From NCBI RefSeq assembly GCF_003259185.1, contig NZ_QGMP01000001.1:558001-622000 (forward strand): DNA of 64,000 nucleotides, given 5' to 3'. The stretch comes from Isoalcanivorax indicus (GTDB lineage Bacteria; Pseudomonadota; Gammaproteobacteria; Pseudomonadales; Alcanivoracaceae). Every line of letters begins with the position of its first letter. Within the stretch, counting starts at the first letter, position 1. The position numbers were made by a program, and so were the translations under genes. The notes beneath the pieces are model-generated. The model ran no database searches, was not told where the DNA came from, and saw only the letters and a program-made list of their open reading frames with translations. Of this stretch, positions 38,940 to 52,664 are shown in pieces.

Positions 38940-39755
38940 ATGTTCGACAGCATACGGGAAGACATCCGCTCGGTGTTCGATCGTGATCCGGCGGCCCGCA
39001 ACAGCCTGGAGGTGCTGCTCACCTATCCCGGCCTGCATGCACTGCTGCTGCACCGGCTGGCGCACTGGTGCTGGCGTCGCGGCATGAAGCTGTTGGCACG
39101 ACTGATATCGACCTTCAGCCGATGGGCCACGGGTATCGAGATTCATCCGGGGGCGCGTATCGGCCGGCGGTTCTTCATCGATCACGGCATGGGCGTGGTC
39201 ATTGGTGAGACGGCAGAGGTGGGCGATGACGTGACGCTCTATCACAGTGTGACCCTGGGCGGCACCAGCTGGAACAAGGGCAAGCGCCACCCGACGCTGG
39301 AGGATGGCGTGGTGGTGGGTGCTGGCGCCAAGGTGCTGGGGCCGATCCGTGTCGGCAAGGGCGCTCGCATCGGCTCCAACTCGGTGGTGACCAAGGAGGT
39401 GCCTGCCGGGGCCACGGTCGTGGGTATTCCGGGCCGGGTGATTGCCAAGGCGAACACGGAAGAGGAGAAAAACCGGGAAGAAATGGCGCGCAAGATCGGC
39501 TTCGAGGCCTACGGCGTGACCAACGACATGCCCGACCCGGTGGCGCAGGCGATCCGCAGCCTGCTGGATCACATGCACGCTGTGGATACCAAGATCGACC
39601 GTATGTGCAGTGCGCTGCGCGAGCAGGGCATCCGGGGTTGCGACGAGAAGCTGCCAGAGCTGAACGATGCCGATTTCGACGCGGTGGATGGTGCGGATGC
39701 GGGGCCGGACATGGCGCACCCGCCGCGCCGGGACGGCACAGACAGTAATACTTGA
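38940..39755 (+). CDS. cysE: serine O-acetyltransferase
   Basis: 271 residues. An N-terminal helical domain is followed by the left-handed beta-helix: [45 protein letters not shown], then the catalytic loop. It makes O-acetylserine for cysteine synthesis. Standing directly before iscR-iscS, it supplies the cysteine that desulfurases consume. The C-terminal tail is long and acidic. Confidence 0.95.
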
Positions 39756-39780
39756 CCAAAATACTCGGGATTAGTAACCT
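39748..39780 (+). promoter_or_regulatory. iscR promoter overlapping an IscR type-1 operator
   Basis: The operator-like stretch runs from ATACTTGACC (39748) to TACTCGGGAT (ending 39772) and fits the type-1 site bound by [2Fe-2S]-IscR. It overlaps a promoter with -35 TTGACC (39752-39757), 17-base spacer and -10 TAACCT (39775-39780). Holo-IscR would therefore repress its own gene. A closely related site precedes sufB. Confidence 0.82.
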
Positions 39781-39810: not shown

Positions 39811-40293
39811 ATGCGACTCACTACCAAGGGCCGTTATGCGGTCACGGCGATGCTGGATCTGGCACTGCATGCCCGTAGCGGGCCGGTTTCCCTGGCGGAT
39901 ATTTCAGAGCGCCAGGGCATTTCCATTTCCTATCTGGAGCAGCTGTTTGCCAAGCTGCGGCGGCGCAAACTGGTGTCCAGTGTGCGCGGGCCGGGTGGTG
40001 GCTATCAGTTGAGCGCCGAAAGCGCCTCCATCAGTGTGGCCAGTGTGATCGACGCGGTGGACGAGTCCGTGGACGCCACCCGTTGCGCGGGTCTGGGGGA
40101 TTGTCAGGACGGCGAGACCTGCCTGACCCACTACCTGTGGTGTGATCTGTCCGATCAGCTGCACAGCTTCCTCAACGGCATTTCACTGGGGGACCTGGTG
40201 GACCGCGCCGATGTGCGCCAGGTGGCGGAGCGTCAGAAACGCCGCCAACGCCAGCATGAGCAGGAACGCGTGCCGCTTAGCGTTATTAACTGA
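39811..40293 (+). CDS. iscR: Fe-S cluster assembly regulator IscR
   Basis: 160 residues from ATG 39811. The Rrf2 winged helix starts [18 protein letters not shown]; the recognition segment is [29 protein letters not shown]. Cluster ligands match E. coli IscR exactly: Cys92, Cys98, Cys104 and His107. The holo form represses isc-type promoters; the apo form can act at type-2 sites such as suf. Confidence 0.96.
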
Positions 40294-40315: not shown

Positions 40316-41485
40316 ATGAAACCTGTCTATCTGGATTATGCCGCCACCACCCCGGTGGACCCGGCCGTGATTGAAGTCATGGCCGGTTGCCTGGGTCAGG
40401 ATGGTCTGTTCGCCAATCCAGCGTCCCGTTCCCATCTGTACGGCTGGCAGGCCGAGGACGCGGTCGAGAGGGCGCGCCGCCAGGTGGCTGATCTGATTCA
40501 CGCTGACCCCCGCGAAATCGTCTGGACCAGTGGCGCCACCGAAGCCAACAACCTGGCCTTGAAAGGTGCGATGCAGGCACGCAGCAAACTGGGGCGGCAT
40601 ATCGTGTCGGTGGCCACCGAGCACAAGGCGGTGCTGGACACCCTCGCCTGGCTGGCGCGTCAGGGGTTCGAGGTGACCTTGCTCACGCCGTCGGCCGATG
40701 GACGGCTGGAACCTGCTGCATTGCGGGGTGCCCTGCGGGAGGACACCACGCTGGTGTCGTTCATGCATGCCAACAATGAAACCGGGGTGATCCATGATAT
40801 CGCCGCCCTCGGCCAGATCTGCCGCGAGGCCAGTGCGGCGCGGGCGCGGGGTGAGGGCATCCTGGTGCATGTGGATGCCGCCCAGACCCTGGGCAAACTG
40901 CCGATAGATCTGTCGCAGCTGCCCGTCGACCTGATGTCCTTCTCCGCTCATAAACTGTATGGCCCCAAAGGTGTTGGCGCGCTCTATGTGCGCCGCGCGC
41001 CGGGCGTGGTGCTGGAAGCCCAGATACACGGCGGCGGGCACGAACGCGGCATGCGCTCCGGCACCCTGGCCACGCATCAGTTGGCGGGATTTGGCGCTGC
41101 CTGCGCCGTTGCCAGCGAGAAGATGGACAGCGACAACATCCGTATTCGTGCGTTGCGTGATCGACTTTGGGAGGGCCTGCAGGCGTTGGGCGGCGTGCAC
41201 CTTAACGGCCATCCCGAGGCCCGGCTGCCGGGTCACCTCAACGTGGCGTTCGAAGGGCTGGATGGCGAGTTGCTGTTGACGGCCCTGTCCGAGATTGCCG
41301 TGTCGACCGGATCGGCCTGCACCTCGGCCTCCCTCGAGCCGTCTTATGTCCTCAAGGCCATGGGCGTCAGCGATGCCCTGGCCCACGCCTCGCTGCGTTT
41401 CTCCGTGGGGCGCTATACCTCCGAGGCGCAGATCAGCAGCGCCCTTGCCCACCTCACAGAAACCCTCGCCAGATTGCGGGGCTGA
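40316..41485 (+). CDS. iscS: cysteine desulfurase IscS
   Basis: 389 residues from ATG 40316 ([16 protein letters not shown]), 22 bases after iscR. The PLP lysine lies in [11 protein letters not shown], and the catalytic loop [15 protein letters not shown] has Cys335, which is the group I (IscS/NifS) type. E. coli IscS is 404 residues, so this form is slightly short at the C-terminus. No iscU, iscA, hscB, hscA or fdx follows. It may feed tRNA thiolation and other sulfur acceptors, with SUF making clusters. Confidence 0.94.
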
Positions 41486-41662
41486 TGTCCCTCTGGCCTT
41501 CACGACCGCCGGGCGCTTTCACCTTGACGGCCATGCCGGGAGAGGAAAATGATAGCGCTGTCACGTCCGTGACGGCGATGACGGCTGCGGGGCCGTGCTC
41601 TTCCGCAGGGTTTGGCAGCCTGTCAATGCAAATAACCTGATCAAACTTTCTGGGGTGGGGAA

Positions 41663-42865
41663 ATGTCTATCGTAAAGCGGCCCAACGTGGCTGCCCTTCT
41701 TGTAGTGTTCATCAGTTTATCCCTGAGCGCCTGCGGCGGCTCTTCTTCGGCGAAGTCATCTGACCTCATCATTGCTGACGGGGCGACCTTGCGGGCATTG
41801 ACGATCGAGGGGAGTGGTGAGAATACCACGCTTTCCCAGGTGCGTTCAGCGTCGGTGCCGGGTAATGATGGTTTTCCTGTGTCAGGTTTTCTTCCCGAGC
41901 ACACGATCTTTGCAATGATTCCGCATCCCTCCAGGCCGTGGGTCTATGTCACATCGTTCAACGATTGTGGTGTGGCGGAACTGGGCTGCTGGGGCAACGC
42001 TCGCGTTGACTTGTTTGAAATCCAGCCGAAGCGCCTGCGTCATATCTCGCGGGTATTCACCTTTGACGAGTCGCAGCTGGACATCAGCTGTGCGCAGAAT
42101 GATGTAGGGATCGAAGGGCAGCACGGCGCCTGTGCCATTGTCAGTGGTGTGATATCCCCGGACGGCTCCCGCCTTTACCTGCAGGATGATGACTTTGATC
42201 TGCTCATGATATTTGCCATTAATCCCCTCACCGGTGCGCTGACTTTCCTTTCCGAGGGGGACCAGAGTGACGTGCGGCTGCATGGTCTGGCAATGCATCC
42301 GCAGGCGGCGCTGGTGTACAACGGCAGCAACGTTCTTGATGTCAGCGACGACATTATCAGCTTTGAATTCAATGGTGCAGGTGGAAACGGGACCCAGGTG
42401 CTTGCCGGTGGTGAAGGCGCATCGGACCTGCTGCTGACGACGGAAGAAAACCGCCACGTTCGAATCTTCCATCTGGATGAGCCATTGGCGCCGGTGCTGG
42501 TGGATGGTTATGACGCAGGACAGCGAGGTGCGCGGGATGTTGCTATCAACAATGCACGGAACAGGCTGGTTGTAGTAGGTCGTAACCGTGTGACGACCCT
42601 GTCTTTTGACGGTAACGATATCACTGAGCTTGATGTATTCGATATGCAGGACCCGGATGGGCGTGATATCGAGTATCGCTCGGTTGTGCTGACCCGTCAG
42701 GGCGAGCAGCTGCAGGCCGCTGTGTCATGGTTTGTGAACGACGACAGCAATGATAGCGGCTTCTCCGGTGGTGTATCGCTGTTCGATGTGGATGCAGATG
42801 GCGTGATCACGCCAGCGGCAACGCGCCTGACGAGCCGTGCATCACGTACGTTGATGCGTCCGTGA
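41663..42865 (+). CDS. lipoprotein with lactonase-like beta-propeller
   Basis: 400 residues. The lipobox is LSAC with Cys24. The rest is beta-rich, with repeats such as FAMIPHPSRPWVYVTS, GVISPDGSRLYLQD, LHGLAMHPQAALVYN and AINNARNRLVVVG, typical of seven-bladed lactonase/YncE propellers. Conserved Cys residues (DCGVAELGC, SCAQ...GAC) may form disulfides. The enzymatic role is unknown. It is the first of three genes between iscS and the suf operon. Confidence 0.75.
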   Translation: MSIVKRPNVAALLVVFISLSLSACGGSSSAKSSDLIIADGATLRALTIEGSGENTTLSQVRSASVPGNDGFPVSGFLPEHTIFAMIPHPSRPWVYVTSFNDCGVAELGCWGNARVDLFEIQPKRLRHISRVFTFDESQLDISCAQNDVGIEGQHGACAIVSGVISPDGSRLYLQDDDFDLLMIFAINPLTGALTFLSEGDQSDVRLHGLAMHPQAALVYNGSNVLDVSDDIISFEFNGAGGNGTQVLAGGEGASDLLLTTEENRHVRIFHLDEPLAPVLVDGYDAGQRGARDVAINNARNRLVVVGRNRVTTLSFDGNDITELDVFDMQDPDGRDIEYRSVVLTRQGEQLQAAVSWFVNDDSNDSGFSGGVSLFDVDADGVITPAATRLTSRASRTLMRP

Positions 42866-42871
42866 TACTCG

Positions 42872-42903
42872 ACAGCAGCCCCTTGGTCACAAGGGGCTGC
42901 TGT
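42872..42903. terminator. perfect 14-bp hairpin between two convergent genes
   Basis: ACAGCAGCCCCTTG (42872-42885) pairs exactly with its complement at 42890-42903, loop GTCA. It starts seven bases after the lipoprotein stop and reaches within three bases of the AEC permease stop. It could serve both directions, though neither side has a T-run. Confidence 0.7.
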
Positions 42904-42905
42904 GC

Positions 42906-43802
42906 TCAGGGCAATACATGATTGAACAGCGGCACGGTAATCAGTGACAGCACAATACCGATGCCGACAATGCGGCTGGCCAGTCCCGGCGCCAGCCCGT
43001 GCTGCTGGGCCAGGATGCCCGCGGTGATCATGGGGGCCATGGCACCCTGCAGTACAGCGATGGACAGCGCATCCCCGGTCACATTCAGACTTGTCGCCAG
43101 ACCCCAGATCAGCAACGGGGCCAACAGCAGCTTCCAGCCCAGCCCCCAGGCCATGGGCTCGGCCTCATTGCCCGGCATGGTCAGTTTCAGCTGCATGCCC
43201 ACCGAAAATAACGCCAAAGGCGTCAGTGTGGAGCCCAGGCGTGCAGCGACCTCAGCCAGGGGGGCCGGCAAGCCGCCCAGGCCGCGTAGTGCAAAAGCCG
43301 CCATCAGGGCGATAAAGGCCGGAAACAGCAGCACGCGTTTGGCCAGTTGCCGGGGAGCAATATGCTGGCCCGCATACAGCGCGGCGACCATCACGCCCAG
43401 CGAGGACAACACCAGAAACGAGCCGAGCTGATCGGCGATCACGGCGGTGCCCAGACTGTCTGTGCCGCGCAGGGCTTCCACTAGCGGGTAGCCGACAAAG
43501 GCGGTGTTGCCCAGGCCGCAGGTCAGCACCAGCGCGCCGATCTGGCCGCGCGTCCAGCCGCGCCAGCGGCCCACCAGCGCGATCAGCGCCCAGGCGCCGA
43601 GGAAGACCCCCCACATGGCGGCTGCCGGGAACAGCATGCTCGGTGACCAGGCCAGACGGGTGATCTGGTCCAGCACCAGTGCGGGCAGGGCGATATACAG
43701 CATCCACCAGTTGAGCGACAGCGACAGCCCTTCGGGATGCCTGAGCCGTGCGACGACAACGCCGGCGCCCAGGCAGATCAGAACCAGCCAGAGTGCGCTC
43801 AT
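42906..43802 (-). CDS. AEC-family (auxin efflux carrier-like) permease
   Basis: 298 residues with ten hydrophobic segments in two halves, as in AEC permeases. It starts MSALWLVLICLGAGVVVARLRHPEG and includes LVLTCGLGNTAFVGYPLVEAL, the conserved N-x2-F-x-G-P-like crossover region, and GLATSLNVTGDALSIAVLQGAMAPMITAGILA. Family members carry organic acids or amino acids; the substrate is not predictable. Confidence 0.88.
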   Translation of the reverse strand: MSALWLVLICLGAGVVVARLRHPEGLSLSLNWWMLYIALPALVLDQITRLAWSPSMLFPAAAMWGVFLGAWALIALVGRWRGWTRGQIGALVLTCGLGNTAFVGYPLVEALRGTDSLGTAVIADQLGSFLVLSSLGVMVAALYAGQHIAPRQLAKRVLLFPAFIALMAAFALRGLGGLPAPLAEVAARLGSTLTPLALFSVGMQLKLTMPGNEAEPMAWGLGWKLLLAPLLIWGLATSLNVTGDALSIAVLQGAMAPMITAGILAQQHGLAPGLASRIVGIGIVLSLITVPLFNHVLP

Positions 43803-44101
43803 GCGTGGTCACGCAGAGGTGGGTGCCAGGTGTTGCGATGCGGGCCGGGCATGAAAGAGATTCCTTGCGGTGTCAATAAACGGGTAATGGCAAAACGCCA
43901 TTATAGAGCGTCATGGCCGCCGTTAGAAATGGACTTTGGTCGCCAATGCGGGCGGCCTGAATATGATATCAGGCTGATATCACTTTTATTTTTTTGTTGA
44001 AAGAAAAAATATCCTCTGACACTGTCGGCATATTCCGGAAATGTGAAGCCGGAATAATACCTTTCAAAAAATGGATAATAATCATGACATGGGGGTCTCC
44101 A
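43803..44101. promoter_or_regulatory. AT-rich divergent intergenic region with palindromes
   Basis: The region between the AEC permease and the CVNH lipoprotein is much richer in A+T than its neighbours. It has a perfect palindrome GATATCAG-G-CTGATATC at 43965-43981 and an inverted repeat TATTCCGG (44031-44038) with CCGGAATA (44049-44056). Both precede the lipoprotein gene and look like operator or leader elements. No known regulator site is recognised. Confidence 0.6.
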
Positions 44102-45721
44102 ATGCCTGTTACCTTTTCGCGTCTCCGCGACGCTGCCTTGTGTGTTGCCGCTGCTCTGGCGCTGGCAGCCTGCACGGACGGCGCCGATAGCGACAAGCAA
44201 ACCGTCTCTGAAAAACAGCCGCTGGCGCAACAGGCCAGCCTGTCGTTGCCGCCAGGTTCATGGCAGCTTTCCTGTAACAATGCCTCCCTCAGTAATGACG
44301 TGCTGACAGCGTCCTGCAAGACGCTTTCGGGCAACACGACCCAGGCATCCCTGTACGGTGTCAGCAACTGTCTTGGTCGTATTGTTCAGGGTGGTGATAT
44401 CGGCAATATCGATGGCAGTCTGATCTGCATTCCTGATCTGCCGCGCGTCGATGCCTCGTTTGTGTTTCCTCAATCCGAGCGCACCATCAACAACTGGGTC
44501 TATGGCGGTGATGATGAGGCCATGTATCGGCATGGCTGGGGTATCTGGGCCGGGCTGACGCAGCAAGCCGGTGTGGTGGACGGTCAGCCGGTGCGCGCGT
44601 TCCAGACCTGGGCGACGCCCTCCAACATGAAGTACCGGATGAAGAACGAAACGGCGCCGCCGCAGCGCCATCTGGATCTGGAGCCTGCTCGCCAGTTCCG
44701 CAACAAGGCGCATCTGGCGAGCCAGGCGCAAGCACAGGGGGATGGCGACACGCATATTGCGGTATCCGTGGCCTATAACCCGCCAGCGGCCAATCATGCG
44801 ATTCGCAATCGCCTGTTCCTGCAAAGCACGCTGGAGACTTTTCTCAAGGAAGGCTATGAGGAAATTCCCAACTTCCCCAGTAACGCCATTACCATCAAGC
44901 CGGTGTACAAGGTGATCAATGCCAGCAACACGCAAGATGGCATTTACACTATGCCGGGCTGGCCTGGCACACCCTCGCCGGCCAGAACTTTCGGCGAAGA
45001 CACCTGGAATGCCTGCGTCTACATTGACGTCAACGGCAGCGGCAGCGGTGGCAGCGAGATAGATCAGGGCTGCTCGGGCCGTAACGCCAGCAACACCTTC
45101 TACCTGAGCAATTTCATCCATCATCCGGTCACGGCGGCCGATGCGGAATATCTGGCGGCACAGTTGAGCGTCAAGGTCAGCGAAGGGGATTACGTCATTC
45201 TGGTCGGCATGCACGTCGGCACGCGTGAGGTGAAGCGCTGGGCCTGGCAGACCTTCTGGTGGTCGGCCAATGCGGATCAGCCTGAGTTGCCCAGCAGTGA
45301 AAGGATCGCCAGCTTGCGGCCTGCAGTGCTGGATGAGGCGGCCCGTCACTATGCGATGAGCGTGGGTTATGCCATGGTCTCACCGGCACAGCCGATCATC
45401 GGCGGCAAGAATGAAGGTGAGCCGGTGATCTCCTATAACCCGCACCTGGAAGCCGGTTTCGATCCGGGTGTGTTCCAGATCAAGCGTCCGATCAACGGTG
45501 ATCAGTTGATGGAGTATGGCGTGCAGACCAACTGCATGACGTGCCATGGGCTGGCGTTCTACGACCCGAAGGTGGATTACAGCGCGGATGGCGGTGCGAA
45601 TCGGGAAAAGCCCTATGCCGCGGATTTCTACATGTCGCTGGACGACGCTGTGTTTGAAGGCAAGCTGAAACTGGATTTCGCCTGGTCCATTCTCGGTGTG
45701 CTGGAGCTGGACGCCGAGTAA
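44102..45721 (+). CDS. lipoprotein combining a cyanovirin-like (CVNH) unit and a CxxCH haem motif
   Basis: 539 residues from ATG 44102, which follows a GGGGGT site; upstream in-frame ATGs at 43994 and 44084 are possible. The lipobox LAAC places Cys24 at the membrane anchor. Residues about 48-110 (PGSWQLSCNNASLSNDVLTASC ends at Cys72, then IGNIDGSLIC) match one CVNH repeat, with Cys58 and Cys72 spaced like Cys8 and Cys22 of cyanovirin-N. A large unrecognised central region is rich in Trp. CMTCH at 478-482 is a c-type haem-binding motif. CVNH domains bind glycans; the combination suggests a surface redox or sensing role, but function is unknown. Confidence 0.72.
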   Translation: MPVTFSRLRDAALCVAAALALAACTDGADSDKQTVSEKQPLAQQASLSLPPGSWQLSCNNASLSNDVLTASCKTLSGNTTQASLYGVSNCLGRIVQGGDIGNIDGSLICIPDLPRVDASFVFPQSERTINNWVYGGDDEAMYRHGWGIWAGLTQQAGVVDGQPVRAFQTWATPSNMKYRMKNETAPPQRHLDLEPARQFRNKAHLASQAQAQGDGDTHIAVSVAYNPPAANHAIRNRLFLQSTLETFLKEGYEEIPNFPSNAITIKPVYKVINASNTQDGIYTMPGWPGTPSPARTFGEDTWNACVYIDVNGSGSGGSEIDQGCSGRNASNTFYLSNFIHHPVTAADAEYLAAQLSVKVSEGDYVILVGMHVGTREVKRWAWQTFWWSANADQPELPSSERIASLRPAVLDEAARHYAMSVGYAMVSPAQPIIGGKNEGEPVISYNPHLEAGFDPGVFQIKRPINGDQLMEYGVQTNCMTCHGLAFYDPKVDYSADGGANREKPYAADFYMSLDDAVFEGKLKLDFAWSILGVLELDAE

Positions 45722-45756
45722 CGGAAACGCGACCTGACCGATCAGCCCGCGCCGTG

Positions 45757-46212
45757 TTACAGGCGGCGGCGGGCTTCTTCCTGAATGCGACTGACCATGG
45801 CGCGGACGCCGTTACCGCGTGTGGGGCTCAGATGCTTGAGCAGATCAATCGCGGTGAAGTAGGTGTTCATGTCGTAGTCGACAATCTGCTGCGGGGTCTT
45901 GTGGTTCAGGGCGGCCAGTACAATGGCGGCCAGCCCGCGCACGATCAGGGCGTCGCTGTCTACCGCCATATGCATGCGGTTCTCGCTGCTGTCGTGCTGG
46001 ATTTCCAGCCATACCTGACTCTGGCAACCGCGAATGAAACGGTCATCCGTTTTCAGGGCATCAGGCAGGGGGGGCAACTGTTTGCCCAGATCGATGATGT
46101 AGCCGTAGCGCTCTTCCCAATCGTCAAAGAACGACAGGTTGTCCACCACGTCTTCGGCGGTGATGTCCTGGCCCAGTGCCAGCTGTTCCAGCGGTTGCAA
46201 CGACTCATTCAT
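45757..46212 (-). CDS. sufE: sulfur acceptor protein SufE
   Basis: 151 residues from ATG 46212. The SufE motif FIRGCQSQVWL has the sulfur-accepting Cys63, and LSPTRGNGVRAMVSRI is the conserved C-terminal helix. SufE takes persulfide from SufS and passes it to SufBCD. It is the last gene of the leftward suf operon, 13 bases after sufT. Confidence 0.95.
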   Translation of the reverse strand: MNESLQPLEQLALGQDITAEDVVDNLSFFDDWEERYGYIIDLGKQLPPLPDALKTDDRFIRGCQSQVWLEIQHDSSENRMHMAVDSDALIVRGLAAIVLAALNHKTPQQIVDYDMNTYFTAIDLLKHLSPTRGNGVRAMVSRIQEEARRRL

Positions 46213-46225
46213 CAAGGCTTACTCG

Positions 46226-46774
46226 TCAGAAGATACCCAGTTCGACCTGGGCCTCCTCGCTGATCATGTCGCGGCTCCAGGGCGGATCGAATACCAGCGC
46301 GACTTCTACTGCGTCCACATTCGGAACGCGCGCAAGACGATATTCCACGTCACTGACCAGTACCGGCCCCATGCCGCAGGTCGGGGCGGTGAGGGTCATG
46401 CGCACCTGCACGATGTTCTTGCCATCGCGCTGGATGACGTCCACACCATATACCAGACCCAGTGACTGGATGCTGACCGGGATTTCCGGATCGAAAATGG
46501 TATCGAGGGTGCGCTCCACATCGCTCATGCGCACACTGCCGTCGGTCTCGGCAGGTTCGAAGGTCAGTTCAAGGGGCTGTTGGCCGATGGCGTCGGCGTC
46601 GGTGCCGTCAATGCGCAGCATGTTGCCGTTCCAGGTGACGGTAAAGGTGCCACCCAGTGCCTGGCGCAGATTGACGAAACTGTTTTTCGGTATGGTCACC
46701 GGCGTGCCGGCGGGCACGCGGCGAGCCGCTACGTCGCGGTTGACGACGACGGTGCGCTGTTCCTGTTGGCTCAT
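46226..46774 (-). CDS. sufT: Fe-S assembly factor SufT (MIP18/DUF59 family)
   Basis: 182 residues. An N-terminal SufT-specific region (about 1-85) precedes the DUF59 domain with DPEIPVSIQSLGLVYGVDV and TLTAPTCGMG. SufT proteins in Gram-positive bacteria help maturation of Fe-S enzymes when cluster demand is high; this longer form is common in Proteobacteria that rely on SUF. It lies between sufA and sufE. Confidence 0.92.
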   Translation of the reverse strand: MSQQEQRTVVVNRDVAARRVPAGTPVTIPKNSFVNLRQALGGTFTVTWNGNMLRIDGTDADAIGQQPLELTFEPAETDGSVRMSDVERTLDTIFDPEIPVSIQSLGLVYGVDVIQRDGKNIVQVRMTLTAPTCGMGPVLVSDVEYRLARVPNVDAVEVALVFDPPWSRDMISEEAQVELGIF

Positions 46775-46779
46775 GGCGA

Positions 46780-47142
46780 TCAGACGCTCACAGAGAAGCT
46801 TTCACCGCAGCCGCACTCGCCTTCGGCGTTCGGGTTGCGGAACTTGAAAAAGCGGTTCACGCCTTCGGTGACGTAGTCGATTTCGGTGCCGTTGACCAGT
46901 GGCAGACTCTTGTCGTCCACATAGACGCGCACGTCATCGGTGATGGTCACCTCATGATCGCCCGGCGCAGGGGCATGCACATACTCCAGCACATATTTGT
47001 AGCCGGAGCACCCGGACGGTTTGACACCCAGGCGCAGCCCGCGCGCTTTTTCGCGCAGCAGTTCACGACGGGCCTGCTGTTCGGCGCTGCTCGTCATGGC
47101 GATTCGGGGCGATCCGGGTACATAGGTCTGTACGGAAGTCAT
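46780..47142 (-). CDS. sufA: A-type Fe-S carrier SufA
   Basis: 120 residues with the three A-type cysteines: Cys45 in PSGCSGYKY, and Cys110 and Cys112 in ECGCGESF. A-type carriers hold clusters and deliver them to apoproteins. ATG 47142 gives a short N-terminal extension before the conserved domain; Met16 is an alternative start. Position between sufS and sufT supports SufA rather than ErpA. Confidence 0.93.
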   Translation of the reverse strand: MTSVQTYVPGSPRIAMTSSAEQQARRELLREKARGLRLGVKPSGCSGYKYVLEYVHAPAPGDHEVTITDDVRVYVDDKSLPLVNGTEIDYVTEGVNRFFKFRNPNAEGECGCGESFSVSV

Positions 47143-47170
47143 AGCCTGCTCTCTGTCACGCCTGCCTGGT

Positions 47171-48412
47171 TCATAGGAAGCGCCGGACTTTTTCCAGCGC
47201 CGCGAAAAGCTGATCTACCTCTGCGCGGGTGTTGTAGGGCGCAAAGGCCGCTCGCACCGTGCCGGGGATGCCCAGAGCGTTCATCAGCGGCATGGTGCAG
47301 TGGTGGCCGGTGCGCACGGCAACGCCCTGCTGGTCGAGCAGCGTGCCGACGTCATTCGGATGGCTGCCCTCCAGAAGAAAGGATAACACTGCTATCTTGG
47401 TCGGGGCGTCCCCGATGATTTTCAAGCCCGGAAAGGCGCGCGCCTGCTCGGTCGCATAGTGCAGCAGGTCCGCCTCGTGGGCCGCCATGGCAGCGCGGTC
47501 CTGCTGGTTGAGCCAGTCAATGGCCGCACCAAAGGCGATTACGCCACCAATATGCGGTGTGCCGGCCTCGAACTTGTAGGGCAACTGGTTCCAGGTGCTG
47601 GCCTCGAAGGTCACCGTCTCGATCATCTCGCCGCCGGTCTGCCACGGCGGCATGGCTTCCAGCAGGGCCTTGCGGCCGTAGAGCACGCCGACCCCGGTGG
47701 GGCCGAACAGCTTGTGTGCAGAGAAGGCATAAAAGTCACAGTCCAGCGCCTGCACATCTACCGGGAAATGCGATATCGCCTGCGCGCCGTCGAGCAGCAC
47801 TTTTGCCCCCACCGCACGGGCCCGGGCAATCAGTGCCGCCACCGGATTGATGACGCCCAGCGCATTGGAGACCTGCACCAGCGCCAGTATGCGGGTGCGC
47901 TCGGTAATGATGTCCTCGAGACGGGACAGGTCGAGCTCACCGTTGTGCGAAGGATGCAGGGGAATGACTTTCAGCGTGGCGCCGGTGCGTGCACACACTT
48001 GCTGCCAGGGCACGATATTGGCGTGATGCTCCAGACTGGAGATAACCACCTCATCGCCTGGCTTGAGCGTGTCGCCACCATAGCTGTGCGCCACAAGATT
48101 GATAGCTTCCGTGGTGCCACGGGTCCAGATGACTTCCTCGCGGCTGGCATTGATCAGTGACGCGACTTTCTCACGCGCGTCCTCGAAAGCGGCCGTGGCG
48201 CGCTCCGCCAGGCAGTGCGCGCCACGATGCACGTTGCTGTTGTCGTGCTCATAGTAGGCGGCCAGCGCGTCGATGACGGCGCGCGGCTTCTGCGTGGTCG
48301 CAGCGTTGTCCAGATACACCAGCGGCTTGCCATACGGCCGCTCGGCCAGGATCGGGAACTCGGCGCGCAGGGTGGCCAGATCCAGAGTGCCTGTCATCCG
48401 AGTGCCTGTCAT
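47171..48412 (-). CDS. sufS: cysteine desulfurase SufS
   Basis: 413 residues from ATG 48412, which overlaps the sufD stop by ATGA; Met at 48397 is an alternative. Group II desulfurase: VYLDNAATTQKP near the start, PLP lysine in FSAHKLFGPTGVG, and the short catalytic loop TGHHCTMPLMN with Cys372. It works with SufE to supply sulfur to SufBCD. A repeat in the start region duplicates the first five codons. Confidence 0.96.
   Translation of the reverse strand: MTGTRMTGTLDLATLRAEFPILAERPYGKPLVYLDNAATTQKPRAVIDALAAYYEHDNSNVHRGAHCLAERATAAFEDAREKVASLINASREEVIWTRGTTEAINLVAHSYGGDTLKPGDEVVISSLEHHANIVPWQQVCARTGATLKVIPLHPSHNGELDLSRLEDIITERTRILALVQVSNALGVINPVAALIARARAVGAKVLLDGAQAISHFPVDVQALDCDFYAFSAHKLFGPTGVGVLYGRKALLEAMPPWQTGGEMIETVTFEASTWNQLPYKFEAGTPHIGGVIAFGAAIDWLNQQDRAAMAAHEADLLHYATEQARAFPGLKIIGDAPTKIAVLSFLLEGSHPNDVGTLLDQQGVAVRTGHHCTMPLMNALGIPGTVRAAFAPYNTRAEVDQLFAALEKVRRFL
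48385..48412. repeat. 13-bp direct repeat (period 15) at the sufS start
   Basis: gagtgcctgtcat occurs at 48385-48397 and 48400-48412. On the coding strand it makes the N-terminus MTGTRMTGTL and gives two in-frame ATG codons, the upstream one overlapping the sufD stop. It is the second short period-15 duplication at a gene junction in the window. Confidence 0.75.
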
Positions 48413-49713
48413 GGCTTCTCCGTGACCGTCAGCGCGCCTTCCAGCCAGGGGCGGGCCCACTCGGCCACGGCGGCGTCAGGCAGGGCGCTGAGCAATTCGT
48501 TGACAAAGCCGAAGGCCAGCATGCGTTTCGCTTCGTCACCAGGTATGCCGCGAGAGCGCAGATAGAACAGCGCCTGGGCATCCAGTTGCCCGCAGGTGGA
48601 GCCATGGCTGCACTTGACGTCGTCGTTGTAAATTTCCAGTTCCGGCTTGGTGTTGATTTCGGCGCCGTCGGTCAATAGCAGGTTCTTGTTGCTCAACTCG
48701 GCACGGGTGCCGCGCGCACCTTCGAAGATATGGATGCGGCCGTTGAAGACCAGCTTCGCCTGGTCGCCTGCCATCCCCTTGAACACCTGCTCGCTGCTGG
48801 CGTGGGGAGTACGGTGTTCGACGCAGATCTGGTTGTCGGTATGGGTCTTGCCCTGGCCGACAAAGATGCCATTCAGACCGACATGGGCGCCGCTGCCATC
48901 CAGCAGCACACGCACGTCATTGCGGCGCAATGCGCTGCCCTGCATCAGCTGGAAACTGTGGGCGCGGCTGTCGCGCCCCGGATTGATGACCAGCGTGCCG
49001 ATATGCAGTGCCTCGGGGGCTTCAGCCTGCAGACGGTAATGCACCAGATCACCGCCGATACCGCTGAACAGCTCGGTGACGGCATTGGTAAGCACGGCGC
49101 CAGTACCGATATAGCGCTCGATCAGGGTGGCGCGACTGCCAGCGCCGACATGCAGGCGCAACCGGGGATGGCATACCGAGGGCGTATCGCCGCAGCTGAC
49201 CAGCAGCACTTCGATGGGGGCATCCAGGGTAACGCCGTCGGGCACCGTGAGTACCAGGCCATCTTCCAGTGCGGCGCTGTTGAGCCAGGCAAAGGGTGTG
49301 CGCAGGCTGTCGTCGATGACGGTCAGAGGGGCATTTTCGCTGCCGTCCAGGCGGGTCAGGCGAAGGCCTTCCGCTGGCGGGTTGGACAGCCCGGGCTGGT
49401 AGCGCCCGTTTATCAGCACCAGACGATGGGGCGCCAGCGGCGCCGGCAGGTCAAACGGCAGATCCTTTTCGCTGGCCGCCGCTGCGCTGTGGGCCAGATG
49501 GCCGTTGTCCAGGGCGGTCAGACGCGTGTACTTCCACTGCTCGGTGCGCTTGTCCGGGAACACGTTATCGGCAAGCTGCTTGCGCGCCTGCTCGCGCCAT
49601 GCCGCCAGCGCGTCGTCGCGCGCTGCCGCGTTGGCCAGCGCAATGGCCTGGGCTGCCAGGGTAACGGCGAGCGGTTCAGCGAGGGGCGCGGAGCGGGTTG
49701 CGGAAGCGCTCAT
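48409..49713 (-). CDS. sufD: SufD, Fe-S scaffold subunit
   Basis: 434 residues. The N-terminal helical region is followed by the SufBD beta-helix with GSALRRNDVRVLLDGSGAHVGLNGIFV and the C-terminal KCSHGSTCGQLDAQALFYLRSRGI, whose His is conserved for cluster binding. With SufB and the ATPase SufC it forms the SufBC2D scaffold. Its ATG overlaps the sufC stop by four bases. Confidence 0.96.
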   Translation of the reverse strand: MSASATRSAPLAEPLAVTLAAQAIALANAAARDDALAAWREQARKQLADNVFPDKRTEQWKYTRLTALDNGHLAHSAAAASEKDLPFDLPAPLAPHRLVLINGRYQPGLSNPPAEGLRLTRLDGSENAPLTVIDDSLRTPFAWLNSAALEDGLVLTVPDGVTLDAPIEVLLVSCGDTPSVCHPRLRLHVGAGSRATLIERYIGTGAVLTNAVTELFSGIGGDLVHYRLQAEAPEALHIGTLVINPGRDSRAHSFQLMQGSALRRNDVRVLLDGSGAHVGLNGIFVGQGKTHTDNQICVEHRTPHASSEQVFKGMAGDQAKLVFNGRIHIFEGARGTRAELSNKNLLLTDGAEINTKPELEIYNDDVKCSHGSTCGQLDAQALFYLRSRGIPGDEAKRMLAFGFVNELLSALPDAAVAEWARPWLEGALTVTEKP

Positions 49714-50471
49714 GCGGTGGCGTCCTCCTGCTCTCCGGTGATCCAGCCGTAGCCTTTCTTTTCCAGCTCCAGCGCCAGCTCCTTGCCGCCGGATTTGACG
49801 ATGCGGCCACCGGCCAGCACATGCACATGATCCGGCACGATATAGTCCAGCAGGCGCTGATAGTGGGTCACCAGCACGATGGCGCGTTCCGGACTGCGCA
49901 GGGAATTGACGCCGCGCGCCACCACCTGCAGGGCGTCGATATCCAGGCCGGAGTCGGTTTCGTCCAGCAGGGCGAGCTTGGGCTCCAGCAGCAGCATCTG
50001 CATGATTTCGTTGCGCTTCTTTTCGCCGCCGGAGAAGCCCTCGTTGACACCCCGCTTGAGGAATTGCGGGTCCAGATCCACCTGCTTGCTGACCTCGCGG
50101 GCTTTCTTCAACAGGGTCACGGCATCCCAGGGCTCCTTGCCCTGTGCCTTGCGGGTGGCCTCCAGCGAGGCCTTGAGGAATTCGAGGTTGCTGACGCCGG
50201 GAATTTCCACCGGGTACTGGAACGCCAGAAACAGGCCGGCATGGGCGCGCGCTTCCGGGTCCAGCTCGCTGATGTCGCGGCCGTCGACCAGCGCCTGGCC
50301 GCCGGTGATTTCATAGCCGTCACGGCCAGCCAGGACATTGGTCAGGGTGCTCTTGCCGGAGCCGTTGGGGCCCATGATGGCATGCACTTCGCCAGCCTTG
50401 ACCGTCAGGTTGAGGCCCTTGAGGATGTCTTTGCCCGCCACACTGGCGTGCAGGTCCTTGATTTCCAGCAT
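49710..50471 (-). CDS. sufC: SufC, Fe-S assembly ATPase
   Basis: 253 residues from ATG 50471. ABC ATPase with Walker A GPNGSGKST at 34-42, EGFSGGEKKRNEI signature and LALLDETDSGLDIDALQ Walker B. It dimerises on SufB-SufD and powers cluster assembly. It starts 29 bases after the sufB stop. Confidence 0.97.
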   Translation of the reverse strand: MLEIKDLHASVAGKDILKGLNLTVKAGEVHAIMGPNGSGKSTLTNVLAGRDGYEITGGQALVDGRDISELDPEARAHAGLFLAFQYPVEIPGVSNLEFLKASLEATRKAQGKEPWDAVTLLKKAREVSKQVDLDPQFLKRGVNEGFSGGEKKRNEIMQMLLLEPKLALLDETDSGLDIDALQVVARGVNSLRSPERAIVLVTHYQRLLDYIVPDHVHVLAGGRIVKSGGKELALELEKKGYGWITGEQEDATA

Positions 50472-50500
50472 CAATATCTACGCCTTTCGGTTGGTAGGGG

Positions 50501-51943
50501 TTACCCGACAGCCCCTTCGAGACTGACTTCCAGCAGCTTGCCGGCTTCCACCGCAAACTCCATGGGCAATTCCTTGAACACTTCCTTGCAGAAGCCGTTG
50601 ACGATCATCGATACCGCCTTCTCCGGGTCGATGCCCCGGTTGCGGCAGAGGAACAGCTGATCGTCGGACACCTTGGAGGTGGTGGCCTCGTGCTCGATGG
50701 TCGCCGAGCGGTTGCGGCTCTCTATATAAGGAAACGTGTGGGCGCCGCAGGCGTCGCCCAGCAGCAGGGAGTCACACTGGGTGAAGTTGCGGGCGTTTTC
50801 CGCGCGCGGGCTGATGCGCACCAGGCCACGGTAGCTGTTGCTGCTGCGACCGGCGGAAATGCCCTTGGAGATGATGGTGCTCTTCGTGTTCTTGCCCAGG
50901 TGGATCATCTTGGTGCCGGTGTCCGCCTGCTGCATGTGGCGGGTCAGGGCCACGGAATAGAATTCGCCGATGCTGTTGTCGCCGCGCAGGATCACGCTGG
51001 GGTACTTCCAGGTGATCGCGGAACCGGTCTCCACCTGGGTCCAGGAGATCTTGCTGTTCTCGTGGGCCACGCCGCGCTTGGTGACGAAGTTGTAGATGCC
51101 GCCCTTGCCGTTCTCGTCGCCGGGGTACCAGTTCTGCACCGTGGAGTACTTGATCTGGGCACCGGGCAGGGCCACCAGCTCGACCACCGCAGCATGCAGC
51201 TGGTTCTCGTCGCGCATCGGCGCCGTGCAGCCTTCCAGGTAGCTGACGTAGCTGCCTTCGTCGGCGACGATCAGGGTGCGCTCGAACTGGCCGGTCTTGG
51301 CTTCGTTGATACGGAAGTAGGTGGACAGCTCCATCGGGCAGCGCACGCCCTTGGGGATATAGACAAAAGAACCGTCGGAGAACACCGCCGAGTTGAGGGC
51401 GGCATAGAAGTTGTCGCCCTGGGGCACGACGCTGCCCAGATACTGCTTGATCAGCTCCGGGTACTCATGCACCGCCTCGGAGATGGAGCAGAAAATGACC
51501 CCGGCCTCCATCAGCTTGGCCCGGAAGGTGGTGCCCACGGATACCGAGTCGAATACGGCATCGACTGCCACGCCGGCGAGCATTTCCTGCTCGTGCAGGG
51601 GAATGCCCAGCTTCTCGTAGGTGCGCAGCAGCTCCGGGTCGACCTCGTCCAGGCTCTTGGGACGGTCTTCCATGCTCTTGGGGGCGGAATAGTAGGAGAC
51701 CTCGTCGAAGTCCAGCGGCGGATGCTTCAGGTGTGCCCAGGTAGGCAGCGGCATGTTCAGCCACTTTTGGTAGGCCTGCAGGCGCCACTCCAGCAGCCAT
51801 GCCGGCTCGCCTTTCTTGCCGGAGATGAAACGGATCACGTCCTCGCTCAACCCCGGGGGCAGCGTGTCCGATTCGATCGCGGAGACAAAACCTGCCGCGT
51901 AGTCGCTGCGGATCAGCTTGTCGAGTTCGGCTTGGCTCGTCAT
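50501..51943 (-). CDS. sufB: SufB, Fe-S scaffold subunit
   Basis: 480 residues. Motifs characteristic of Suf[52 protein letters not shown] and, near the C-terminus, the [16 protein letters not shown] block that holds a cluster-binding Cys. It is the first gene of the leftward suf operon and has a promoter with an IscR-like site just upstream. Confidence 0.97.
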
Positions 51944-51997
51944 AGGCGTGACCTTTGCTGATGACCTGTGCTGGGGCGGCGGCGTGTGCCACCATGA

Positions 51998-52026
51998 ATA
52001 CCAGAGTAAAACGGTCGGGTATTATA
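51998..52026 (-). promoter_or_regulatory. sufB promoter with IscR type-1-like operator
   Basis: On the minus strand TATAAT (52026-52021) is a consensus -10. The adjoining sequence from ATACCCGACC to TACTCTGGTAT (52022 down to 51998) shares the pattern ATACYYGACC-n4-TACTCKGGNAT with the iscR operator. The site would cover the transcription start, so IscR bound here would block initiation. The -35 (TTTCAA, 52049-52044) is weak. Confidence 0.75.
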
Positions 52027-52179
52027 TGCCATCGCCGGAACGATTGAAAATCCCGATGGTCTCCACTGGGGTGGGGGTGGCGTGCTCCATGCTGGCTCCA
52101 TGTGAGCGCCCGCTAACACCCTGTCGGGCGGCCCCGGTGGCGGCGCGGGCGAACGGTATCATATTTCGCCCCGCATGCG

Positions 52180-52185
52180 TATAAT
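52180..52185 (+). promoter_or_regulatory. -10 element of the ndk promoter
   Basis: A perfect TATAAT lies 47 bases before the ndk ATG. No good -35 is seen at 16-18 bases. The rest of the 289-base gap between sufB and ndk holds the sufB promoter and no gene. Confidence 0.55.
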
Positions 52186-52232
52186 CCTGCGCCTCACGAA
52201 CCACCCCGAAATCATGTGGAGTTAAGAGTCCG

Positions 52233-52664
52233 ATGGCTGTTGAGCGTACCCTTTCCATCATCAAACCCGATGCCGTGGCCAAGAATGTGATTGGTCAGAT
52301 CGAGTCCCGCTTCGAGAACGCCGGCCTGCGTCTGGTTGCCCTGAAAATGGTGCAACTGAGCCAGGAGCAGGCGGAAGGCTTCTACGCCGAGCACAAGGAG
52401 CGTCCCTTCTTTGGCGACCTGGTGGCCTTCATGACCAGTGGTCCGGTGGTGGTGCAGGTACTGGAAGGTGAAGACGCGATCAGCAAGAATCGTGAACTGA
52501 TGGGCGCCACCAACCCGAAAGAAGCGGCGGCAGGCACTATTCGTGCCGACTTCGCTGTGAGCATTGACGAGAATGCCGTGCACGGTTCCGACTCGGCCGC
52601 TTCCGCCGAGCGCGAGATCGGCTATTTCTTCAAGCCGGAAGAAATCTGCGCGCGCATTCGCTGA
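52233..52664 (+). CDS. ndk: nucleoside diphosphate kinase
   Basis: 143 residues, canonical length. It begins [18 protein letters not shown]; the phospho-accepting His117 is in NAVHGSDS. It balances NTP pools by ping-pong phosphate transfer. It follows the isc region in Pseudomonas as well, which supports the idea that the DNA between iscS and ndk was exchanged. Confidence 0.98.

Follow-up and report, generated by a model that had tools for sequence, protein, structure and literature searches.

Gene content of the locus

Analysis of open reading frames (ORFs) and profile searches with NCBIfam and Pfam were used to call the genes in a 64,000-nucleotide stretch of the Isoalcanivorax indicus genome (the window; contig NZ_QGMP01000001.1, positions 558,001 to 622,000). 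The window carries a complete, leftward sufBCDSATE operon of the sulfur mobilization (SUF) type between iscS and ndk, the place where many relatives carry the genes of the iron-sulfur cluster (ISC) system. The left flank consists of suhB on the reverse strand followed by trmJ, cysE, iscR and iscS on the forward strand, and the exchanged segment is bordered on the right by ndk (52233..52664, forward strand, PF00334), rlmN, pilF, rodZ and ispG. Between iscS and ndk there are three passenger genes (see below) and then the suf operon, with no iscU, hscB, hscA, fdx or iscX. This gene order was the core of the original prediction and is confirmed by the ORFs and by both profile collections. An Rfam scan of the window at gathering scores gave no matches.

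All suf genes are encoded on the reverse strand. They are sufB, encoding the scaffold (50501..51943, PF01458, 260.7 bits), sufC, encoding an ABC ATPase (49710..50474, PF00005), sufD (48409..49713, TIGR01981, 251.6 bits with a cut-off of 222), sufS, encoding a cysteine desulfurase (47171..48412, TIGR01979, 566 bits with a cut-off of 475.1), sufA for an A-type carrier with three cysteines (46780..47142, TIGR00049, 104.3 bits with a cut-off of 58.8), the long form of sufT (46226..46774, TIGR03406, 243.8 bits with a cut-off of 202.6) and sufE for the sulfur acceptor of SufS (45757..46215, PF02657, 151.9 bits). The sufB, sufC and sufD genes stand together, an order that is kept in the mapped loci of the family, and the operon has its own SufS with a SufE acceptor, not SufU. 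Among the SUF genomes compared, SufB identity is 74-100% along most of the protein, not counting fragments.

The iscR gene (39811..40293, forward strand) encodes an Rrf2-family regulator (TIGR02010, 214.8 bits with a cut-off of 207.55). The adjacent iscS gene (40316..41485, forward strand) encodes a protein of 389 amino acids in which the match to TIGR02006 ends at position 379 of 402; alignments showed that the C-terminal IscU-docking tail is missing, whereas the catalytic loop and the residues Lys206, His104 and Cys328 are kept. The protein scores below the equivalog cut-offs of both TIGR02006 (521.4 against 643.2) and NF010611 (PRK14012; 544.1 against 548), and automatic naming of tail-less IscS may therefore be vague. 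Current IscS equivalog cut-offs thus miss at least the tail-less IscS of the window.

ISC components in the genome and the family

The genome of I. indicus (3.44 Mb in 9 contigs, completeness listed as 100%) harbors no match to IscU/NifU_N (PF01592), HscB (PF07743) or CyaY (PF01491), and its best match to the ISC ferredoxin (TIGR02007, E = 1e-6) remains under the cut-off. HscA is absent from the iscS-ndk interval, and a genome-wide search for it was not made. IscU, HscB and ISC ferredoxin are thus lacking, next to an IscS without docking helix and tail, and the searches for IscU, HscB, CyaY and ferredoxin (HscA not searched) revealed no second ISC set elsewhere in the genome. MnmA is present, as it is in 188 of the 194 genomes of the order described below.

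IscU is missing in all 36 genomes searched of family f1, taken as the Alcanivoracaceae and including I. indicus, and all 36 give a SufB match, in one of them (G017) only a contig-end fragment. Since the arrangement recurs throughout the Alcanivoracaceae it is not a matter of chance, and this recurrence, together with the listed completeness of the genome, also rules out an artefact. What had been noted for the window is accordingly real, but it is family-wide and recurrent rather than special to this genome.

Distribution of ISC and SUF in the order

Among 194 genomes from 47 families of the order, housekeeping IscU was found in 89 and SufB in 105. SUF without IscU occurs in 101 genomes, IscU without SUF in 85, both in four and neither in four, the last being listed as 75-93% complete. 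For these counts, matches were sorted manually by score, length and place. Excluded from the IscU count were NifU-like matches (G158, G203, G117, G169 and a second one in G080) and weak matches of SufU-like or other type (G064, G101, G104, G090, G197, G174, G122, G149, G135 and second ones in G105 and G184). Nine families (f14, f16, f18, f24, f25, f29, f38, f41 and f44) contain both members with IscU and members with SufB and no IscU, and even congeners, as judged by genus code, hold either system (G221/G058, G168/G114 and G173/G196).

The other ISC components follow IscU closely. HscB is present in 85 of the 89 genomes with IscU and in none of the 101 SufB genomes without it, CyaY in 51 and none, respectively (and in G086, which has neither system), and an ISC ferredoxin above the cut-off in 87 and one. 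A housekeeping tree of TrmJ, RlmN, IspG, SuhB and Ndk requires 11 changes of IscU state, of which at least seven are forced by supported branches; it was obtained by a quick search from 50 of 52 hand-chosen genomes (two lacked markers), many of them from the mixed families, and G216 and G053 have long branches. An independent-pairs test, in which the IscU label served for both traits as an intact IscS tail equals the IscU state in the 50 rows, counts the seven supported contrasts and adds no further evidence.

The locus in relatives

Gene order was mapped in 40 stretches, then in 20 more, and in 80 named loci. In E. coli the order is suhB-trmJ-iscR-iscS-iscU-iscA-hscB-hscA-fdx-iscX, and families of the order with IscU have suhB-trmJ-(cysE)-iscR-iscS-iscU-iscA-hscB-hscA-fdx-iscX-ndk-rlmN (for example L094, L097, L190 and L193). 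Exactly at the ISC position, a number of SUF loci carry iscR-iscS-sufBCDSATE-ndk in one direction (L109, L186, L187, L198, L212 and L218, and also L211, L214 and L216 from Alteromonas, a genus of another order). Variants include a tandem iscR-iscS-suf arrangement ca. 4.5 kb ahead of ndk (L100), the single-strand order suhB-trmJ-iscS-iscR-sufBCDSATE-ndk at the same site (L104; G044, f10), sufBCDSATE-trmJ-iscR-iscS-ndk with suf directly ahead of trmJ (L184 and L185, f24), iscR-iscS-ndk with suf located elsewhere (L102 and L111), and iscS-ndk with iscR moved next to suf (L095/L096). In L097/L098 ISC is in place and a suf operon lies at another site, as would be expected of an intermediate.

In the Alcanivoracaceae the suf operon also lies between iscS and ndk, but reversed as compared to the tandem cases and convergent with iscS in all 14 measured loci, including the window. 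Two further mapped genomes of the family stand outside these 14: one has sufE apart from the operon (G009) and one is split over two contigs (G012). The replacement at the same locus that had been proposed is supported by this comparison: the site holds ISC in E. coli and in many of the order's families, and SUF in the Alcanivoracaceae and others. There is no sign that the SUF arrangement is ancestral; the ISC state of the locus is the one found in E. coli too.

A different arrangement was seen at the iscR...ndk site of other Gammaproteobacteria (L225, L232, L245 and L264), where iscR-iscA-sufBCDS-(IscU/SufU-like)-sufT is present and iscS gave no match; in L264 the IscU/SufU-like gene went undetected.

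Loss of the IscS tail and of contact surfaces

The tail was scored by the end point of the match to the E. coli IscS query, and the sequence was read directly in 40 genomes with IscU, in 56 of the 101 SufB genomes without it and in 26 further genomes of the family; in the others the call rests on the match end, and the match of G215 is weak. An intact tail is present in all 88 readable genomes with IscU, with the match reaching residue 404 in 86, plus G093 and G216; the 89th (G156) has no IscS match. Conversely, none of the 99 readable SufB genomes without IscU has an intact tail (G096 and G149 are cut and unreadable). Decayed tails are found in G180, G168, G052 and G081. Among the named loci, none of 17 IscS genes has an intact tail, with a remnant in OM182 (L212) and a partial tail in the deltaproteobacterial L269. 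In the Alcanivoracaceae the tail is missing in all 33 genomes in which IscS was read; G020 has no clear IscS match and G024 and G030 were unread. Since all four genomes with both ISC and SUF retain the tail, its loss points to the loss of IscU and not to the gain of SUF. Apparent partial tails in G131, G145 and G187 were rejected as remnants, the matches having overrun a stop codon, and G216 was rejected as a genome with IscU and no tail, as the tail resumes beyond an assembly gap of N. In the Protein Data Bank (PDB), the solved cysteine desulfurase 7mhv_A (395 amino acids) gives a match to E. coli IscS that ends at residue 386 (E = 3e-155) and may be a tail-less IscS of this kind.

The contact surfaces of E. 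coli IscS were described by Shi et al. 2010 (PMC2854127; this and the other papers given by PMC number are cited from excerpts). IscU contacts residues 309-316, 347, the end of helix 11 and 379-391, and is not bound by IscS missing residues 376-404. TusA sites are W45, E49 and D52, and CyaY/IscX sites are R116, R220, R223, R225/E227, G234, R237/M239, A327 and R340. We compared 41 IscS sequences from genomes with IscU, E. coli included, with 82 from genomes without IscU, including the window. Both sets show 100% conservation of C328, A327, K206, H104 and W45 and either D or E at position 52. The sequences without IscU retain R220, G234 and R237 at 96-98%, whereas R112, R116, R223 and R340 fall from 97-100% to 7-20%, R225 to 35% and E227 to 28%, and the IscU contacts E309, S312, M315 and E347 to 18-29%.

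Retention of the columns fixed in the IscU set was averaged over 25 families without IscU, and P values were obtained against random conserved core columns. Retention is 1.00 for catalytic residues, 0.82 on average for the core and 0.22 for helix 379-391, which is thereby eroded far more than random conserved columns. The CyaY/IscX mutant positions reach 0.50 (P ~0.0002), or 0.58 (P 0.0006) with the well-kept R39 and A327 added, and the IscU core contacts 0.61 (P ~0.02), a weaker erosion than that of helix 379-391 or the CyaY/IscX set. From these sequence comparisons, uncoupling of IscS from IscU and CyaY is well supported. The claim that IscS was left without its scaffold is strongly supported as well: where IscU has been lost, so have the IscS tail and the residues contacting IscU and CyaY.

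Candidate IscR sites

Type-1-like sites were scored against a 25-bp consensus which we take to represent IscR type-1 sites. Upstream of iscR, ATACTTGACCAAAATACTCGGGATT (39748..39772, forward strand) has 4 mismatches in 25 positions (shuffles: mean 9.5, least 8). The near-palindrome ATACCCGACCGTTTTACTCTGGTAT (51998..52022, reverse strand), 54 bp before sufB, has 3 mismatches in 25; it is the sole match in the window at ≤3 mismatches, a level found in none of 100 shuffles. A type-1-like site precedes sufB in all 16 family loci (0-3 mismatches, with shuffled means near 9). When suf comes directly after iscS, a separate site before sufB is mostly missing; L109 and L211 are exceptions, with 4 mismatches each. 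Operons standing apart have their own site in L112 (2 mismatches), L184 (4) and L185 (5), or an iscR-like gene in front in L096, L177 and L103, the site ahead of the L103 gene being poor. L098 and L107 depart from this general rule, with no site before sufB; L107 has a distant Rrf2-like gene. The cluster ligands C92, C98, C104 and H107 of the window IscR are present at the E. coli positions (numbering from PMC8593673). Type-1 sites are bound by holo-IscR alone and occur mainly at isc, erpA and nfuA, whereas the site at E. coli sufA is type 2 (PMC8593673). With a type-1-like site at sufB, suf therefore appears to occupy the housekeeping feedback slot of ISC here.

Relation to known systems

Patchy occurrence of ISC and SUF in Gammaproteobacteria, with mostly one system per genome, has been reported (PMC10631705), and the distribution was mapped for 139 Pseudomonadales (PMC11559095). 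Mutual exclusion of the two systems in Pseudomonadota is thus already known, but the excerpted parts of these papers treat presence and absence only, and exchange at a single locus and lost IscS docking surfaces are not among their topics. The alphaproteobacterial isc-suf operon of Caulobacter and Rhodobacter, in which iscR-iscS followed by suf forms a single cluster-assembly operon with IscR as repressor (PMC11475020, PMC7728643), is also known. The window resembles it in the association of iscR-iscS with suf genes and in the IscR regulator, but here the suf genes form a distinct operon that runs leftward, convergent with iscS, has an IscR-like site to itself and lies in the gammaproteobacterial suhB-trmJ-...-ndk locus. 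The one-direction iscR-iscS-suf order, absent from the window, occurs in other families (L109, L100 and L186). For Beta- and Gammaproteobacteria except Enterobacteriaceae, iscRS is said in the excerpt of PMC11475020 to belong to the isc operon; the SUF families described here are exceptions to that statement.

In Mycobacterium tuberculosis ISC is reduced to iscS beside a full SUF system without IscU, like in the window, but lineage and locus are different, iscS shares its operon with trmU, and a role in cluster metabolism was reported (PMC10848736). E. coli IscS is of the same enzyme family as the window protein, with the same catalytic residues and the W45 and D/E52 positions of the TusA face, and differs in retaining the 383-404 tail and the CyaY/IscX patch. 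Loss of the IscS tail or an exchange at the isc locus was not found stated in the excerpts of the literature searched, and a large survey cited as reference 16 of PMC10631705 may hold parts of it. The role of IscS in SUF-only bacteria is unsettled, and a natural series of repeated switches, with congeners that hold either system, makes the question testable. It also provides an evolutionary check on the mapped IscS contact surfaces and a simple sequence marker.

Proposed function and origin

We propose that, under IscR, SUF replaced ISC in cluster assembly at the former ISC locus and that IscS now acts as a scaffold-free sulfur donor, probably for tRNA thiolation; we assign this reading a probability of about 0.8. 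An ancestor of the Alcanivoracaceae would have swapped iscU-iscA-hscBA-fdx-iscX for sufBCDSATE, with iscR and iscS retained. As judged by family membership, SufS and SufE would mobilize sulfur, SufBCD would serve as scaffold, and SufA and SufT would aid delivery. IscR, with its ligands intact, may control iscRS and suf through the type-1-like sites, which would put suf at the former place of isc in the cluster-feedback loop. IscS would have stayed active after loss of the IscU-docking helix and most of the CyaY/IscX patch, most likely supplying sulfur via TusA-like acceptors to tRNA thiolation of the MnmA type and perhaps to other thio-cofactor pathways. Its use for sulfur transfer only, for example in tRNA thiolation, as had been suggested, fits these data; expression, regulation and the present partners of IscS are deduced here from gene content and sequence. 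In wider terms, and with slightly better than even odds, the gammaproteobacterial isc locus is an exchange site at which suf cassettes repeatedly displaced ISC genes under the resident IscR, IscS being remade as a scaffold-free donor by shedding its IscU, CyaY and IscX surfaces and the tail serving as a one-look ISC marker.

Several observations weigh against the proposal. The TusA-contact set is retained at 0.85 compared with the average of 0.82 (P 0.46), with E49 down to 0.61; special retention was tested and is not borne out for the set, and TusA is therefore not singled out, dedication of IscS to it being only compatible with the sequences. Taken together, the positions at which mutation lowered ThiI binding show erosion (0.66, P 0.02); they overlap with the CyaY patch. 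G164 (contig C15:4731-5060) carries an ISC-type ferredoxin despite having no IscU, the sole such case among the 101, and M. tuberculosis IscS, also without IscU, is reported to affect cluster enzymes (PMC10848736). The tree of the IscS core is discordant with the housekeeping tree, and one-clade tests, done with 30 rows and a simpler model, reject in-place descent in f14 (p 0.015) and f16 (p 0.013).

The mycobacterial report is also an argument for a continued contribution of IscS to cluster building without IscU, with sulfur passing to SufE/SufBCD or straight to clients. In line with this, iscS stays beside suf in many families and both have IscR sites in the Alcanivoracaceae. We nevertheless find such a role unlikely, as the suf operons supply their own SufS and SufE, as ISC ferredoxin, CyaY and HscB are lost (save the ferredoxin of G164), and as f9, f20, f4 and G168 have iscS apart from suf. 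That IscS is merely decaying after losing its main role, with no important function left, could account for the longer branches of tail-less IscS and for the many once-fixed surface residues that are now variable, but is very improbable given the complete conservation of C328, A327, K206 and H104 in the 82 sequences without IscU and a median retention of 0.90 over 237 conserved columns. Besides, IscS was matched in all 57 relatives, in G020 (64% complete) only at E = 1.4e-28, a weak match that may be SufS.

The proposal of retention in place has its competitor in cassette transfer, in which a tail-less iscS, often as an iscR-iscS-suf block and perhaps via recombination between the conserved flanks, would have spread after losing the tail once or a few times, not repeatedly in place. 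We rate this as possible, at somewhat less than an even chance. The IscS-core tree, in which sequences from genomes with IscU, E. coli included, cluster with G168 and G180, needs three changes of IscU state compared to 11 for the housekeeping tree (the rows of the two trees differ), and G040 (f6) and G123 (f16), from different families, are paired in the trees of both IscS (98) and Suf (95). The rejections in f14 and f16 and the discordance of the Suf tree with family groups point the same way. Against it, in-place descent survives the same tests in f24, f38, f41, f29 and f18 (p 0.06-0.22), four genomes of the order set as well as OM182 have decayed tails, the IscS proteins of G168 and its congener G114, which has ISC, are sisters (99), and f9 and f20 carry iscR-iscS-ndk with suf elsewhere. 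Moreover, the longer branches of tail-less IscS can draw these sequences together, and the grouping in the IscS-core tree fits either rapid convergent evolution of the tail-less proteins or a joint transfer of iscS and suf. A mixture of in-place erosion and cassette transfer is likely. The idea that the regulator and one desulfurase were kept is supported in general, but some lineages probably got iscS along with suf, as suggested by the one-clade tests, rather than retaining their own. In the Suf tree the Alcanivoracaceae form one clade beside a clade (support 85) holding tandem-type operons, and because of this adjacency the reversed orientation of their suf operon may stem from an inversion or a separate insertion.

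Passenger genes at the iscS/sufE junction

The three unrelated genes that had been noted between iscS and sufE are indeed present. The gap between iscS and sufE varies from ca. 50 bp to 26 kb across the 14 family loci, window included, and we therefore regard them only as passengers at a variable junction. The first (41663..42865, forward strand) encodes a putative lipoprotein without a Pfam or NCBIfam family, for which tblastn gave no match at the corresponding place in L075 from the same genus. The second (42906..43802, reverse strand) encodes an AEC-type membrane transporter (PF03547, 90.4 bits with a cut-off of 25.7). The third (43994..45721, forward strand) is an ORF of 575 amino acids whose true start is uncertain; it has no Pfam or NCBIfam family and a single CxxCH motif, and its product is perhaps an unusual cytochrome c-like protein. 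The junction (41486-45756 in the window; L074-L093) is insertion-prone in the Alcanivoracaceae, and in some loci it contains ABC-ATPase-like matches. In G009 (L080/L081) sufE is separated from the suf operon and adjoins iscS on the iscS strand.

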